Assembly: GCF_030068475.1 (NCBI RefSeq)
Contig: NZ_JAQOSP010000066.1
Coordinates: forward strand, 1 to 64,000
Direction: 5' to 3'
Length of the DNA stretch: 64,000 nt
From: Roseofilum acuticapitatum BLCC-M154
GTDB lineage: Bacteria > Cyanobacteriota > Cyanobacteriia > Cyanobacteriales > Desertifilaceae
The notes under the pieces are model-generated. The model did not search any database. It saw only the letters and a list, made by a program, of their open reading frames with translations, and was not told where the DNA came from. Below, piece by piece: positions 35,774 to 53,641 of the stretch. Made by a program: the position numbers and the translations under genes. How positions within the stretch are numbered: position 1 is the first letter of the stretch; the number at the start of each line of letters is the position of its first letter.

Positions 35774-36412
35774 TTAAGGACTTTCCACGTTTTCGCAGTC
35801 GCAGACAATGCTACTGAGAAAATCCTTGACAATGGCGATCGGCAACTCTAACTGTACCCCAACGCGATCCACAAAGGCGATCGCATCATTAGCCACCTGT
35901 TGCACGCGCTGTCCATCCACATAGAGTCCTTCCGTGGGGTATTTCTGCAAGAACTCTAACAGAGAAATTTGGCCATCATCACTTGCAGATAGGGTAACCG
36001 CAGAGCGCAAAGCTTGAATATTGGCATTTCCGGACTTGGTACTGAACAGATAGCCTAATTCAAACAACACATACTCTCCCGGTAAGGAGTAGAACACCCG
36101 ATCCACAAATAACAAGTTCAGTCCCACTTGATAGGTTAACAGCTCGCGCATCTGTTCCGGCTCGACATTAGCCGCATTCAGAATAAACCGAATAATCGCG
36201 GATTGCTCTCCGGTTTCCACAAATTCGGCTAAATCAGATACAGGAACCGAACGAGAAACGGGGCCATACTTAAACACCACCCGTTCCGCACCCAGAGCTG
36301 CCGAACTGCCTAAACACAGACTAGCAGCCGCCGCGCAGACTAGGGGACGAGTCCGAACCATCCACTGAGAAATCTGGTGTTGAATGGACTGTATAACTGT
36401 AGACATAAGCAT
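35774..36412 (-). CDS. DUF1400 domain secreted protein, paralogue 2
   Basis: 212 residues with a Sec-type signal sequence (hydrophobic LVCAAAASLCLGSSAALGA ending near residue 42). The DUF1400 domain follows: VVFKYGPVSRSVPVSDLAEFVETGE, then PGEYVLFELGYLFSTKSGNANIQALRSA. DUF1400 is usually the N-terminal part of cyanobacterial alpha/beta hydrolases, but no hydrolase domain follows here. It ends in CDCENVESP. It lies 26 bp after its paralogue and is clearly related to it, so a tandem duplication is likely. ATG 36412 or 36406 may be used. Confidence 0.8.
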   Translation of the reverse strand: MLMSTVIQSIQHQISQWMVRTRPLVCAAAASLCLGSSAALGAERVVFKYGPVSRSVPVSDLAEFVETGEQSAIIRFILNAANVEPEQMRELLTYQVGLNLLFVDRVFYSLPGEYVLFELGYLFSTKSGNANIQALRSAVTLSASDDGQISLLEFLQKYPTEGLYVDGQRVQQVANDAIAFVDRVGVQLELPIAIVKDFLSSIVCDCENVESP

Positions 36413-36438
36413 TGAGTCTCAAAAGTAATCAACCGGAT

Positions 36439-37233
36439 TTACTCAACGGTGGCGCTGAGACGAGAAAGGTTAGTGAAGTTCACTGACTCTAATACAATGG
36501 AGTCATCGACTGTACTTTTAATCACGATTCCATCTTCCGTTACTTCTGCTGTATAGCTGCTGGGTTTGCAGGTATTACTCCCTGGAGCAGAAGCGGAGAG
36601 TCCATCAGTGCTAGGCAGACTGCTAGAGGTTTCGCATTCACAGACGATATCTTGCAGGAAGCGTTTGGCGACTTCTAAGGCAGGAATAATCCGTTCGACC
36701 AGAGCTTTGGCTTGTAGATAAATTGGCTCTAAGCTAGTGACATCTACGGTAATGGTTTGAATGGGATAGCGTTCGAGCAAGCTAATCAGGGAGAGTTCCC
36801 CATCTTCTTCGACCGCTTCTAAGAGGGTATTTTTGACCGCTTCTAAATCCTGGCTACTGGCAGATGAGGCGATCGCCTGATCTAATTTCAGTACAACAAA
36901 CTCCCCTGTGGAGGTATTGACCAGGTTTCGGAAAAAGTCAGGGTTGACTCGAATCGACAAATTCAGGATATCTTGGACTTCCGAGGGCACTTGATCCGTA
37001 TTATCTAAGAAGCGCTGTAAATCAGAGGGAATTGTACCATTGCGGGCAAATTCTCTCAGTTCGCGCACCCCTAGGGTCACTTCCTCAGATTTATATTTGA
37101 AAATGATCGTATCCGCAGCTTGGGCAGTGGGAGCGAAACAGAGCATACTGGCTGCACTGGCTGCGGTTCCCAATAAAGCGGCGATCGCTCCCTGACGAAG
37201 ACGATCTAGGGATTTGATGCTAACTCTATCCAT
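36439..37233 (-). CDS. DUF1400 domain secreted protein, paralogue 1
   Basis: 264 residues with a signal sequence (IAALLGTAASAASMLCFAPTAQA, cleavage near residue 39) and a DUF1400 domain (IIFKYKSEEVTLGVRELREFARNGT, then STGEFVVLKLDQAIASSASSQDLEAVKNTL). The C-terminal 65 residues are Ser-rich and unlike the paralogue, and contain CECETSSSLP. There is no hydrolase domain. The two genes form a short secreted-protein operon of unknown role. Confidence 0.8.
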   Translation of the reverse strand: MDRVSIKSLDRLRQGAIAALLGTAASAASMLCFAPTAQAADTIIFKYKSEEVTLGVRELREFARNGTIPSDLQRFLDNTDQVPSEVQDILNLSIRVNPDFFRNLVNTSTGEFVVLKLDQAIASSASSQDLEAVKNTLLEAVEEDGELSLISLLERYPIQTITVDVTSLEPIYLQAKALVERIIPALEVAKRFLQDIVCECETSSSLPSTDGLSASAPGSNTCKPSSYTAEVTEDGIVIKSTVDDSIVLESVNFTNLSRLSATVE

Positions 37234-49679: not shown

Positions 49680-50102
49680 CTAATAGTGCTTGATCAGCTT
49701 CAAACAATTACGTCCATCTTCCGTGGCTCTATAGCTGAGGTCATCAGCAATATCAGACATCATAAACCAACCCCGTCCATGTTCCTGGTCAGGATGTGGG
49801 CGAGGTTGGCTTCCGAGCCATTGGTCAATATCAAAGCCTGGGCCATAATCCCAAATCGACATTGTGATGGCATCATCCGCTAAGATCGCCTCTATATCAA
49901 TGGGGGTATTTTGGGGAAGATCGCGATGGGCATGGAGAACAGCATTGGTTAATCCTTCGTAAAATGCAGTTTGACACTCAATCCAGGTCGCTTCAGGAAT
50001 GGCGAGGGAGGGCGGCTTAAGACTTTTAAACCACTCTAAGCCATCAGTCAAAGCCTGGCCATCAGAATGAACTTGCAGATAAGCTCTATGGGGCAATTTC
50101 AA
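49680..50102 (-). CDS. RsbW-type anti-sigma/serine kinase (HATPase)
   Basis: 140 residues from TTG 50102, preceded by AAGGG at a suitable distance; no ATG fits. The GHKL ATPase motifs are YEGLTNAVLHAHRDLP (N box), IWDYGPGFDID (G1) and HGRGWFMMSDIADDLSY (G2). Proteins of this type phosphorylate a STAS antagonist on Ser and bind a target. It is divergent from the receiver-PP2C gene and close to two STAS genes, completing a partner-switching set. Confidence 0.85.
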   Translation of the reverse strand: MKLPHRAYLQVHSDGQALTDGLEWFKSLKPPSLAIPEATWIECQTAFYEGLTNAVLHAHRDLPQNTPIDIEAILADDAITMSIWDYGPGFDIDQWLGSQPRPHPDQEHGRGWFMMSDIADDLSYRATEDGRNCLKLIKHY

Positions 50103-50360
50103 TGGTGTAACCCTTAATCAGGCAATCAGCAGAGGTAAATGAAGCATTCAAGCATCCAAAAGTGAACTCAACGTTTATGATGAAATCACCACTTAGGTCG
50201 GTTCAGAATCAGTAAGATAGAAACGGACGCTAGATTGGGGGTCACGCTGCTTACTGAAATTGTTGCTCTGGTGCTTCTGCTTATAAGCTATCAAATAGGC
50301 TATCAAAGTGATCTCACTTTTGTCAGATTTTTCAGCTCCTAGTCTGATGACATTTTAATC

Positions 50361-51515
50361 ATGTACAAGGTTTTGATTATAGAGGATGACCCTTTGTTTC
50401 GGTTAGTGTTGACCAAAGCGCTGAAGAACCAGGGGTATGATGTAACTGTTGCTACTAATGGTGAAGAAGGGTTAGAGCAAGCCGCGAGTCTGCGCCCTGG
50501 ATTGATTTTGTGCGATTGGATGATGCCTCGCATGGATGGATTGGAGGTTTGTCGCCGCATTAAGGCCAATCCGGATTTAACGACGACGTTTTTTGTCTTG
50601 CTCACCGCTCGTGAGGGGGTAGAAGACCGGGTACAAGGACTCGATAATGGGGCGGATGATTTTTTGTCTAAACCCATTGAAGTGAATGAGTTACGGGCGA
50701 AAGTGCGGGCCGGTTTGCGACTGCACCAGCTCAGTCAAGATTTACAAACCGCTAAACAGAGACTTGAAGCTGAGTTAATGGAGGCGGCTGATTATGTTAA
50801 ATCTCTCTTACCTGGCCCCTTAGAAGAATCGGTTTCTATTGATGCGAGGTTTATTCCTTCTCGTCAATTGGGAGGGGACTGTTTTGATTATTATTGGCTC
50901 AATGAAAATCAGTTGGTGATTTATGTGGTGGATGCGGCGGGCCATGGGGTGGGTTCAGCTCTATTATCGGTTTCTGTCCTGAATTTATTGCGCTCTCAAT
51001 CCCTGTCTGGGGTCGATTTTTCTCAACCCCATCAGGTGCTAATGGGTCTGAATGATACTTTCCAGATGGAAACTCAAGGCGATCGCTACTTTACCATTTG
51101 GTATGGGGTTTATCACCGCCAGGAACAGTCTTTGGTTTATGCCAGTTCCGGCCATCCTCCCGCTATCCTCTTATCTCCAGGTTCTCAGGAAGAGATAGAG
51201 GTGCAATATCTGAAAACACCGGGTTTCCCCATTGGGATGTTTCCGGGAGTCGAGTATAAATCCTGTCAATGTCAGGTTCAATCCCAAAGTACCCTCTATG
51301 TGTTTAGTGATGGAGTCTATGAAATTCATCAGACCGATGGCACACTATGGGGACTTCAGGCATTTAGTGAGTTTTTGGCAACCCATCAACATCTTTCGTC
51401 TGAGTTGTTAGATCATTTACTCCATTGCATTCATACGTTGAATCCCAACACCATTTTGGACGACGATCTATCCTTACTTCAGATTCAGTTTCATGGTAAG
51501 GGAGAGGGGGATTAA
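50361..51515 (+). CDS. receiver-PP2C (SpoIIE/RsbU-like) phosphatase
   Basis: 384 residues. N-terminal receiver with Asp53-type site in LILCDWMMPRMDGLEV and SKP Lys (ADDFLSKPIEV). A short coiled coil follows (LHQLSQDLQTAKQRLEAELMEAADYVKSLLP). The C-terminal PP2C domain has GGDCFDYYWL, VVDAAGHGVGSALLS and FSDGVYEI, carrying the metal-binding Asp residues. It would dephosphorylate a STAS protein when the receiver is active. It is arranged tail to tail with the STAS gene (4-bp overlap). It corresponds in layout to HmpU of Nostoc punctiforme. Confidence 0.92.
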   Translation: MYKVLIIEDDPLFRLVLTKALKNQGYDVTVATNGEEGLEQAASLRPGLILCDWMMPRMDGLEVCRRIKANPDLTTTFFVLLTAREGVEDRVQGLDNGADDFLSKPIEVNELRAKVRAGLRLHQLSQDLQTAKQRLEAELMEAADYVKSLLPGPLEESVSIDARFIPSRQLGGDCFDYYWLNENQLVIYVVDAAGHGVGSALLSVSVLNLLRSQSLSGVDFSQPHQVLMGLNDTFQMETQGDRYFTIWYGVYHRQEQSLVYASSGHPPAILLSPGSQEEIEVQYLKTPGFPIGMFPGVEYKSCQCQVQSQSTLYVFSDGVYEIHQTDGTLWGLQAFSEFLATHQHLSSELLDHLLHCIHTLNPNTILDDDLSLLQIQFHGKGEGD

Positions 51516-51835
51516 TCGCTATTCAACTGTCGCTCAAACTCCTCTCGGCTTGACAAGACCTCAAATACCCGATCCATGCTTGTCAGTTCAAACAGCATTC
51601 TGACTTGTTCATTAATGGAGCAGATCAAGAGTTTTCCGCCCGCGGAGCGTACCGTTTTTAAGGCGGCGACTAAGGCCCCTAGACCAGAACTATCAATAAA
51701 AGTCACATCTTTGAGGTCAATCAGGATCGTATCAGCGCCAGATTGAACTAATGCACTGACTTCATCTCTAAACTGTCCAGCTTTGGTGCTGTCTAAAATG
51801 CCGGAGGGTTGAATTTGTTTAATAATTTGACTCAT
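51512..51835 (-). CDS. STAS-domain anti-sigma factor antagonist (RsbV-like)
   Basis: 107 residues, one STAS domain. GILDSTKAGQFRDEVSALV and ILIDLKDVTFIDSSGLGALV contain the phosphorylatable Ser in DSSG. It would be the substrate of the RsbW-like kinase and the PP2C phosphatase encoded on either side. It closely parallels the STAS domain fused to the sugar transferase 0.8 kb away (FIDSSGIGALVG). Confidence 0.92.
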   Translation of the reverse strand: MSQIIKQIQPSGILDSTKAGQFRDEVSALVQSGADTILIDLKDVTFIDSSGLGALVAALKTVRSAGGKLLICSINEQVRMLFELTSMDRVFEVLSSREEFERQLNSD

Positions 51836-52102
51836 GGGTTTTGATCGGCAGAAGGTTGGTGTTTTGATCCCAATCCATTGGATTTAGTTGAATAGGATAC
51901 TACAATTCTGGATTCGGGTTGATCTTATTCTATCCGGATTAACCCAGAAGTTAAATCAGTGCTGAAATCCGGGCTATTTTCAGAATTCATACCCTGGTCT
52001 GAATGGGTTTACGATTGTCCTCAGAGTCAAAGCAGGGTATTTTGAGGAGAGCAGGGGAATCAATGTATCTTTGATAATATCTAGCGATCGCCATTGAAGA
52101 GC

Positions 52103-52573
52103 ATGATTCTAACCACCGTTGGTACTCAACCCTATCCCTTTAATCGTTTAATGAGTTGGTTGGAGGTTCTCGTTCAACGAGGATTGATCCAGGAAGAGCT
52201 GATTGTACAATATGGCAGTTGTACGATTTGGCCGGAGGGAGAAGACTGTTTTGCCGATATTCCAGAGAAGAAGTTAATCCAGTTGGCTCATCAGGCTCGT
52301 CTGATTGTTGGCCACTGTGACCCTCATTTGCTTAAGGGGTTGGCTCAAACGACCAATCCTTATATTTTGGTTCCTCGTGGGCAATGCTATAAAGAGCATA
52401 TTGACGATCGCCAAATTGAGTTAGCCCGTCATCTAGCTTTGGCAGGCGTTCCCATTGCCTGGTCTCCTGGAGACCTGGTGCGATTTATTCATTCTCCCCG
52501 ACGAATTTCTCACTCTACCCTCATGACAATCGCCAATGAGACGGTGAAACGCTCGCTCAAAAAGGGCCGTTGA
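52103..52573 (+). CDS. GT28-C/PssE-like glycosyltransferase subunit
   Basis: 156 residues from ATG 52103 (TTG 52094 is possible). Starts MILTTVGTQPYPFNRLMSWLE and has HQARLIVGHCDPHLLKGLAQTTNPYILVPRG, the C-terminal half of GT28 enzymes. Such half-proteins (PssE, Cps14G) pair with a PssD-like partner to add the second sugar of an exopolysaccharide unit; no partner is visible here. Its position just before the STAS-sugar transferase gene supports a polysaccharide role. The usual GH-x-GxGS motif is altered to GHCDPH. Confidence 0.7.
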   Translation: MILTTVGTQPYPFNRLMSWLEVLVQRGLIQEELIVQYGSCTIWPEGEDCFADIPEKKLIQLAHQARLIVGHCDPHLLKGLAQTTNPYILVPRGQCYKEHIDDRQIELARHLALAGVPIAWSPGDLVRFIHSPRRISHSTLMTIANETVKRSLKKGR

Positions 52574-52639
52574 GTCCATCCTCTGAGCGATCGGATGTTG
52601 GGTTTGGGCAGAATATAACTTTGATAGACTCCCCTTGAG

Positions 52640-53641
52640 GTGTTTATGAACAATCCAGTTAATTCCCCTGAGTTTGCCATGACTTCCTTTGGGGCCTGTT
52701 GTTTGGTTCAATTATCGAAAAATTTTACGGTTAACCAAGCTGTAGCATTTAAGGAGTATTTTAAACAGCTCTGCGATTCCCAATCAGGTCTGACTCAGGT
52801 AATTTTAGATTTAGGGCAAACGACATTTATTGATAGTAGTGGCATTGGTGCTTTAGTGGGGTGTCTGAAAATGGCTCGCGCTCAACAGATCGAGCTGATT
52901 ATTTGGAGCCTTAATCCTCAAGTGAAGATGGCATTTGAGTTAACTGGACTTACCGATGCATTTACGATTGATAGGGGCACAGATGCCCTATTGGCCCCAA
53001 CGACGGATAGCCATGAGGTCTCGCCAAAGATTCATCCTTCGGTGCGATCGCCTCTGAAGCGGTTGCTGGATATCATTGGCAGCTTAGTCGGCTTGGGAAT
53101 TACCTCAGTTCTCTTGATTCCCATTGCGATCGCCATCCAAATTGACGATCCTGGCCCCATTTTCTTTGGTCAAATTCGCTGCGGCTGGATGGGGAAACGG
53201 TTTAAAATTTGGAAGTTTCGCTCTATGGTAGCCAATGCTGAAGCTCTGAAGCATCAGGTTAAAAATGAAGCTGAAGGTGCTTTTTTTAAGAATAAGAATG
53301 ATCCGAGGGTCACCCGTGTGGGTAAATTTTTACGCCGCACCAGCCTAGATGAACTGCCCCAATTTTGGAATGTCTTGAAAGGAGAAATGAGTTTGGTGGG
53401 CACTCGTCCCCCCACCCCCGATGAAATTGAGCGCTATGAAATCCCCAAATGGCAACGGCTCGATGTGAAGCCGGGTATGACCGGAGAATGGCAGGTGAAT
53501 GGGCGATCATCCATTCGAGACTTTGAAACCGTGATTCAGATGGATTTACGCTATCAAGAAAACTGGAGTTTACTCCATGACATTAAGCTGATTCTCAAAA
53601 CCCTTGTGGTCTTATTTCAAAAAAACGCGGGAGCGATGTAA
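52640..53641 (+). CDS. STAS domain fused to an exopolysaccharide-initiating sugar transferase
   Basis: 333 residues. Residues 14-115 are a STAS domain (ILDLGQTTFIDSSGIGALVG) and 133-333 a bacterial sugar transferase of the WcaJ/HepC type. The latter shows a membrane segment (RLLDIIGSLVGLGITSVLLI), DDPGPIFFGQIRCGWMGKRF, KIWKFRSMVANAE, and DELPQFWNVLKGEMSLVGTRPP. It would place the first sugar phosphate on undecaprenyl phosphate. The fused STAS, close to the RsbV-like protein encoded nearby, could let partner switching control polysaccharide initiation directly; this is inference. Confidence 0.9.
   Translation: MFMNNPVNSPEFAMTSFGACCLVQLSKNFTVNQAVAFKEYFKQLCDSQSGLTQVILDLGQTTFIDSSGIGALVGCLKMARAQQIELIIWSLNPQVKMAFELTGLTDAFTIDRGTDALLAPTTDSHEVSPKIHPSVRSPLKRLLDIIGSLVGLGITSVLLIPIAIAIQIDDPGPIFFGQIRCGWMGKRFKIWKFRSMVANAEALKHQVKNEAEGAFFKNKNDPRVTRVGKFLRRTSLDELPQFWNVLKGEMSLVGTRPPTPDEIERYEIPKWQRLDVKPGMTGEWQVNGRSSIRDFETVIQMDLRYQENWSLLHDIKLILKTLVVLFQKNAGAM

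Follow-up and report, generated by a model that had tools for sequence, protein, structure and literature searches.

In the partner switches of Bacillus, the STAS protein SpoIIAA or RsbV is a free polypeptide, and the output is a sigma factor. The HmpU/V/W system of Nostoc punctiforme, made up of a PP2C phosphatase, a STAS protein and a kinase, controls hormogonium motility and polysaccharide (PMC8256260, PMC6495340). Its output is the STAS protein HmpV, acting on an effector described as undefined or unknown (PMC6495340, PMC8256260). In Vibrio fischeri, the kinase/phosphatase SypE acts on the STAS protein SypA, which promotes biofilm through a target given as unknown (PMC8256260). In Anabaena sp. 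PCC 7120, all4160 joins an N-terminal STAS domain to a glycosyltransferase (PMC8256260), and heterocyst envelope polysaccharide synthesis depends on it, as stated in PMC4390870 with citation of earlier work. Here, we analyze a window of 64,000 nucleotides (nt) from Roseofilum acuticapitatum BLCC-M154 (NZ_JAQOSP010000066.1, positions 1 to 64,000), in which the interval 49680–53641 carries five open reading frames: an RsbW-like kinase (−), a receiver-PP2C phosphatase (RR-PP2C; +), a free STAS protein (−), a PssE-like glycosyltransferase subunit (+) and a fusion of a STAS domain to a sugar transferase (+) (Table 1). From sequence comparisons, we lean toward the view that the kinase acts on the STAS domain of the fusion and that polysaccharide synthesis is thereby controlled at its first step, the PP2C phosphatase and the free STAS protein opposing the kinase.

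The Fusion Protein

As part of the same view, the fusion appears to be a membrane-bound initiating sugar-phosphate transferase with a STAS domain of the SpoIIAA/RsbV type at its N-terminus. The STAS domain occupies residues 18–111 and the Bac_transf domain (PF02397) residues 140–326. The protein scores 62.2 bits against the NCBIfam model TIGR00377, above the cut-off of 53.45. The sequence relatives of the transferase part are WbaP and PglC, with matches to the structures 8t53 and 30us (WbaP) and 8g1n (PglC), and those of the STAS part are SpoIIAA and RsbV. The fused STAS domain and the kinase family match both partners in the solved complexes 1th8 and 6m36. An AlphaFold2 model of the fusion (mean predicted local distance difference test score, pLDDT, 72.9; predicted template modeling score 0.58) resembles PglC (Foldseek E-value 1.4e-9) and the STAS chains of 1th8 and 6m36; residues 11–110 have pLDDT values of 72–94 in blocks of ten. 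In the transferase part, D237 and E238 are invariant in 36/36 rows in both alignments (A1 and A4), and we presume them, as in PglC-type enzymes, to be the catalytic dyad. The model TIGR03025 (EPS_sugtrans) aligns to the fusion only from position 181 of its 445 (292.1 bits, cut-off 295.55), so the STAS domain takes the place of the N-terminal region of other enzymes. That region, as found in enzymes of the WbaP, WcaJ or EPS_sugtrans type, was not found in the fusion with the TIGR03025 profile.

A preliminary description of this locus, made from the letters of the sequence, had suggested searching for the fusion architecture across cyanobacteria, and it proves to be widespread. At least 67 of 291 genomes drawn from the phylum, as counted by hand from the table of results, have a listed match covering STAS and most of the transferase; one of these (G213) has internal stops in the match. 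A first set of 75 stretches came from the matches listed in this search, and a named set consisted of the best 80 of 549 matches. The two sets overlap and were merged with further fetched loci into 149 distinct fusions: 174 loci, less 8 exact duplicates and 18 without a frame spanning query residues <50 to >300, leave 148, to which the window was added. The 18 are L104, L105, L129, L150, L173, L174, L233 and L235–L245, and most of L233–L244 had been fetched for the kinase/RR-PP2C/STAS trio, not for the fusion. Among the best 80 of 549 named matches, two lie outside cyanobacteria. Both are in gammaproteobacterial records: Rhabdochromatium has a STAS–sugar transferase fusion (L183:7972-8991), and a metagenome-assembled genome of Competibacteraceae has a broken fusion frame of 246 amino acids with NSSG instead of DSSG (L174:4948-5688; outside the 149). 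The kinase profile detected no kinase at either locus.

Kinase Genes beside the Fusion

An RsbW-like kinase gene lies within 3.5 kb of the fusion in 59 of the 149 distinct fusions. As a control, we took the 20 best-scoring transferase matches that showed no apparent STAS part, each with roughly 3 kb to either side. Nineteen are unfused sugar transferases, and no RsbW-like kinase lies within that distance of any of them; the twentieth (L248) is in fact a fusion with a broken frame, and a kinase is present there. Random gene neighborhoods in relatives, which had been named beforehand as the result that would speak against a functional link, are thus not what is seen. Apart from the families of the named loci, fusions with a kinase occur in 13 coded families. 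Leaving out the window, the kinase gene is directly downstream on the same strand in 52 of 58 cases. The gap between the two genes in those 52 is at most 20 nt or an overlap in 32, 21–200 nt in 8 and 201–900 nt in 12; overlaps were taken as far as the earliest start codon possible, which may overstate them. Of the remaining six, one is L045, with the kinase on the opposite strand, and five are congeners of the window. In the first set, 74 of the 75 stretches have a usable fusion frame, and the kinase is adjacent in 30 of these, in 29 on the same strand. In the named set, 26 of the 80 loci have a same-strand kinase within 1 kb. Some Nostocales genomes, G024 and G042 among them, hold two copies of the fusion, one without a kinase and one within a full module.

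One control locus is arranged like a split fusion, with a free STAS-like gene of 113 amino acids directly upstream of an unfused sugar transferase (L264:3010-4258); the same genome also carries an intact fusion (L089). Two further neighbors recur among the 74 loci. A conserved protein of 214 amino acids is encoded near the fusion in 44, whether or not a kinase is there (for example, L037 and L042), and a gene that we presume to be QueE-like accompanies the fusion in 26.

Conservation of the Presumed Phosphosite and Co-Divergence

The DSSG motif that the preliminary description had pointed out in the fused STAS domain is present as D65-S66-S67-G68, and the free STAS protein has DSSG too. D65 and S66 are found in 149/149 distinct fusions, S67 in 147/149 (two Cys) and G68 in 147/149 (two Ala). 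Two Okeania fusions read DSCG, with the first serine kept. In the alignment to SpoIIAA, S66 of the fusion falls on the first serine, a position at which the 1tid/1til chain has Ala. On this alignment, S66 is the presumed phosphosite. The invariance holds although the mean pairwise difference of the STAS domain is about twice that of the transferase domain. We also considered that the serine might be lost along with the kinase neighbor, and rejected this because none of the 149 has lost D65 or S66.

Kinase divergence follows that of the fused STAS domain more closely than that of the transferase (partial r 0.54 versus 0.32; 41 thinned pairs of the 59). With the 95 most variable transferase columns, the values are 0.56 versus 0.32, and STAS is higher in 19 of 20 half-sets. 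Both partial values exceed all 2000 permutations, so the comparison gives a difference of degree only. Pairwise distances being non-independent, we take the co-divergence as modest evidence in support of a pairing between kinase and STAS.

Two Kinase Types and Their Modules

Three parts of an Rsb/SpoIIA-type module are present at the Roseofilum locus: a HATPase_c_2 kinase, a STAS protein with DSSG and a PP2C phosphatase of the SpoIIE/RsbU type. The kinase has an N-box running from E49 to N53, a G1 box DYGPG and a G2 box GRG, and E49, T52 and N53 are invariant in 26/26 aligned kinases. It matches SpoIIAB (1til_A) at 3.4e-4 and RsbW (6m36_A) at 2.3e-3. Ten window proteins were scanned, these five plus another five close by, and no sigma factor domain was found in them; a sigma factor may be encoded elsewhere.

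In a kinase tree of 85 rows of this short protein, with 30 open forks, the window kinase falls in a clade of 26 (Shimodaira–Hasegawa approximate likelihood-ratio support 96) that also holds the kinases accompanying RR-PP2C, and most fusion-adjacent kinases lie elsewhere in the tree. In other families, the trio of this kinase, RR-PP2C and free STAS lies away from the fusion, and the fusion there has its own kinase. In the genus of the window, the trio stands beside the PssE-fusion pair in all 6 genomes examined. At L129, a trio with the same type of kinase lies on the opposite side of the PssE-fusion pair, and the fusion frame there is short (296 amino acids). Loci of Nostoc, Dolichospermum, Richelia and Tolypothrix (L132, L133, L134, L143 and L157) bring together PssE, fusion, kinase, free STAS and RR-PP2C. 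Loci of Oscillatoria and Laspinema bring together fusion, kinase, PP2C and STAS, the PP2C carrying PAS domains in L139 and L093. These Nostocales and Oscillatoria-type modules use a kinase type other than that of the window. In the PP2C tree, the fusion-linked phosphatases belong to one family and adjoin the fusion on about five branches; the backbone does not resolve, and the tree thus gives no firm count of independent captures. On the fusion tree, a minimum of 5 changes is needed.

The genome of the window has 22 matches to PF13581, and among these the usual fusion-adjacent kinase type was not seen. Four of the 22 are small proteins: the window kinase, an apparent HmpW and two that reach only 21–22 bits against the kinase profile.

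A further branch of RsbW-like kinases lies near genes that we take from their sequence to be petD-like (L218:1441-3065, L216, L221 and L247:6797-9635). There, the kinase adjoins what we take, likewise, for a GT4-like glycosyltransferase gene (with a 4-nt overlap in L218) or a GDP-mannose dehydratase-like gene, a second link between kinase and glycosyltransferase.

Proposed Mechanism and Alternatives

We propose that the RsbW-like kinase would bind the fused STAS domain and phosphorylate S66, by which the transferase would be held back. A sensor-driven PP2C phosphatase and the free STAS protein would oppose the kinase. When the phosphatase is active, the unphosphorylated free STAS protein would capture the kinase, the fused STAS domain would stay unphosphorylated, and polysaccharide synthesis would start. 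In the genus of the window, the neighboring kinase/RR-PP2C/STAS trio probably replaces the usual downstream kinase. The sign of the effect, with the phosphorylated form inactive, is suggested by analogy, because the published reading of HmpV and SypA has unphosphorylated STAS as the active form (PMC8256260). The step from neighbor to partner in the window is taken because the cluster is joined and because the usual kinase type was not seen in the genome. What the sequences themselves show is the gene architecture, the conservation of domains and motifs and the recurring linkage; from these we infer binding, phosphorylation, competition, the sign of the effect and the action of the window trio on the fusion. 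The broader picture, to which we give an even chance, is partner switching with the first polysaccharide enzyme as its output in many cyanobacterial families, different modules having been captured repeatedly by one fused enzyme.

Several observations weigh against this mechanism. Ninety of the 149 fusions stand without a kinase gene inside 3.5 kb, and the serine is still there in all of them; in 3 of the 90, the contig ends less than 1 kb downstream. Seventy of the 90 group in a single clade with good support, and its named members are mainly Nostocales. The window kinase differs in type from those usually found beside the fusion, and its trio stands alone in several families (L235, L237, L238 and L239), so that the action of the window trio on the fusion is drawn from juxtaposition. 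In G008, a sister genus, the pair of kinase and RR-PP2C (L233) and the STAS-PssE-fusion group (L031) lie on different contigs, and no kinase is near that fusion in the 19.9 kb fetched. At L243:11950-13500, in the same family as the window, the PssE-like frame runs into a transferase that lacks the STAS part, with the trio kept upstream; this genome has 7% contamination. Finally, the partial correlation of 0.32 between transferase and kinase remains.

The independence of the trio in other families and its separation from the fusion in G008 would be expected if it controlled some other target, be it a sigma factor or, as with HmpUVW, an unknown protein, with its place beside the fusion incidental and the fused STAS domain answering to another kinase or to none. 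We hold this to be unlikely, given that the trio adjoins the PssE-fusion pair in 6/6 genomes of the genus, that L129 is a second juxtaposition with this type of kinase and that the 22 PF13581 matches offered no kinase of the usual type. Slightly less likely still is that the fused STAS domain is a scaffold, serving dimerization, membrane targeting or ligand binding with no phosphorylation, and simply replacing the N-terminal part of WbaP/WcaJ-type enzymes. The late start of the TIGR03025 alignment and the 90 fusions with no kinase neighbor fit a scaffold; the invariance of D65 and S66 against the greater divergence of their domain, and the kinase genes that abut or overlap the fusion at many loci, do not.

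The same gene linkage would also fit an antagonist, in which the fused STAS domain binds the kinase and frees another output, so that the transferase reports to a regulator. STAS proteins do act on the kinase in the canonical systems. We regard this as very improbable, since many modules already have a free STAS protein and since no further regulator was recognized by eye, with no domain search, among the gene families present inside 6 kb of the fusion at 5 or more of 74 loci. Returning to the kinase acting on the fused STAS domain, the preliminary description had offered this domain as a competitor for the kinase or as its substrate. That the domain is the partner or substrate of an RsbW-like kinase stands as probable, on linkage in 59/149 against 0/19 and on the invariant presumed phosphosite; the window kinase itself comes from a separable trio.

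Gene Layout and the PssE-like Gene

The kinase, receiver-PP2C phosphatase, free STAS protein and fusion that had been read from the letters at 49680–53641 are confirmed by the frames and by Pfam. The five genes are not one operon, the kinase and free STAS genes being on the minus strand and the other three on the plus strand; the PP2C gene and the free STAS gene share 4 nt at their 3′ ends (51512–51515). The identical five-gene order, flanked by CysE and RecR, is found in 5/5 other genomes of the genus drawn by the search (6/6 with the window). Since the order is kept in those five, we regard the cluster as more than chance.

Table 1. Positions in the window of the five genes and of two motifs within the fusion.
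Feature	Position	Strand	Product and start	Supporting match
RsbW/SpoIIAB-like serine kinase	49680..50102	−	140 amino acids, TTG start, "b" type	Pfam HATPase_c_2 (PF13581) 3.8e-20
Receiver + SpoIIE-type PP2C phosphatase	50361..51515	+	384 amino acids	Response_reg 5.2e-30, SpoIIE (PF07228) 7.6e-43
Free STAS protein	51512..51835	−	107 amino acids, FIDSSGLG	STAS 1.1e-20; ant_ant_sig TIGR00377 73.9 bits (cut-off 53.45)
PssE-like (Alg13-type) glycosyltransferase subunit	52094..52573	+	159 amino acids from TTG; in-frame ATG 52103	Weak NCBIfam matches
STAS + polyprenyl-phosphate sugar-1-phosphate transferase fusion	52640..53641	+	333 amino acids from GTG; in-frame ATG 52646	Pfam STAS 4.7e-17, Bac_transf 3.5e-67
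D65-S66-S67-G68 of the fused STAS, S66 the presumed phosphosite	52832..52843	+		Motif conservation in distinct fusions
D237-E238, presumed catalytic dyad of the sugar-phosphate transferase	53348..53353	+		Invariant in alignments

The label PssE-like is kept with some reserve. The gene is there, and its relatives adjoin the fusion at several other loci; the product has no Pfam match, and its NCBIfam scores (WelK 50.1 bits; PssE 44.9 bits, cut-off 120) are both far below cut-off. A search of the same genome for the PssD partner, made with one PssD query sequence and no positive control, gave no match. At 8 of 74 fusion loci, PssE and the fusion have a member of a PssD-like family next to them; the one in L065 reaches 127.1 bits against the PssD cut-off of 110.

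Comparison with Described Systems

The window trio resembles HmpU/V/W in consisting of a PP2C, a STAS protein and a kinase, and the preliminary description had brought in that system. The two are apparently not the same. A long branch parts the window kinase from the putative HmpW group, and the RR-PP2C of the window falls outside the putative HmpU clade and has no detectable GAF domain, unlike HmpU-type proteins. The same genome has an apparent HmpU/HmpW pair of its own outside the window, a GAF-PP2C followed by a kinase on one strand (L106, contig C41 ~36291–36566), distant in the tree. At L220, an apparent HmpU is likewise a GAF-PP2C, with a receiver at the cut end and the kinase following on one strand. 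We therefore reject the identity on tree position and architecture, HmpU and HmpW being assigned here from gene order and the gene names Npun_R5134/R5135, not from published sequences. In the assembly of N. punctiforme NIES-2108, which is in separate contigs, none of the 12 STAS matches was recognized as HmpV. Where the direct target of HmpV is undefined, a STAS domain fused to an initiating transferase with a genetically coupled kinase presents a concrete kind of target. SypA is a free STAS protein with no enzyme fusion, whereas the window STAS domain is fused to the transferase.

If the proposed mechanism is true, partner switching would reach beyond gene regulation and control an envelope enzyme directly, and environmental sensing by receiver or PAS phosphatases would be linked in one step to the production of sheath, slime or heterocyst envelope. 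Production of the sugar coat may then be switched directly at its probable first enzyme. A related pair of genes appears in a 2008 table for a diatom endosymbiont, which lists pseudogenes of rsbW (a weak match, E-value 0.011) and of "STAS and sugar transfersase" together (PMC2246100). The best matches of both have consecutive accessions in Cyanothece CCY0110, and the passage with the table makes no comment on this (PMC2246100). Searches of an open-access collection, which covers only part of the relevant journals, turned up no paper that discusses how a kinase might control the fused enzyme. Such control is provisionally new as a proposal; the fusion architecture was already known from all4160.

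Like all4160, the window fusion has an N-terminal STAS domain and a C-terminal glycosyltransferase. The clade of 70 fusions with no kinase is probably of the all4160 type, the all4160 sequence itself being outside the compared set. The window fusion differs from that clade in belonging to another and in lying beside a kinase, a phosphatase and a free STAS protein. With WbaP, WcaJ and PglC, it shares the transferase domain, and STAS stands in place of their N-terminal part. With SpoIIAB/SpoIIAA and RsbW/RsbV of Bacillus, the window shares the folds of the kinase and of the STAS partner, as well as the phosphosite motif.

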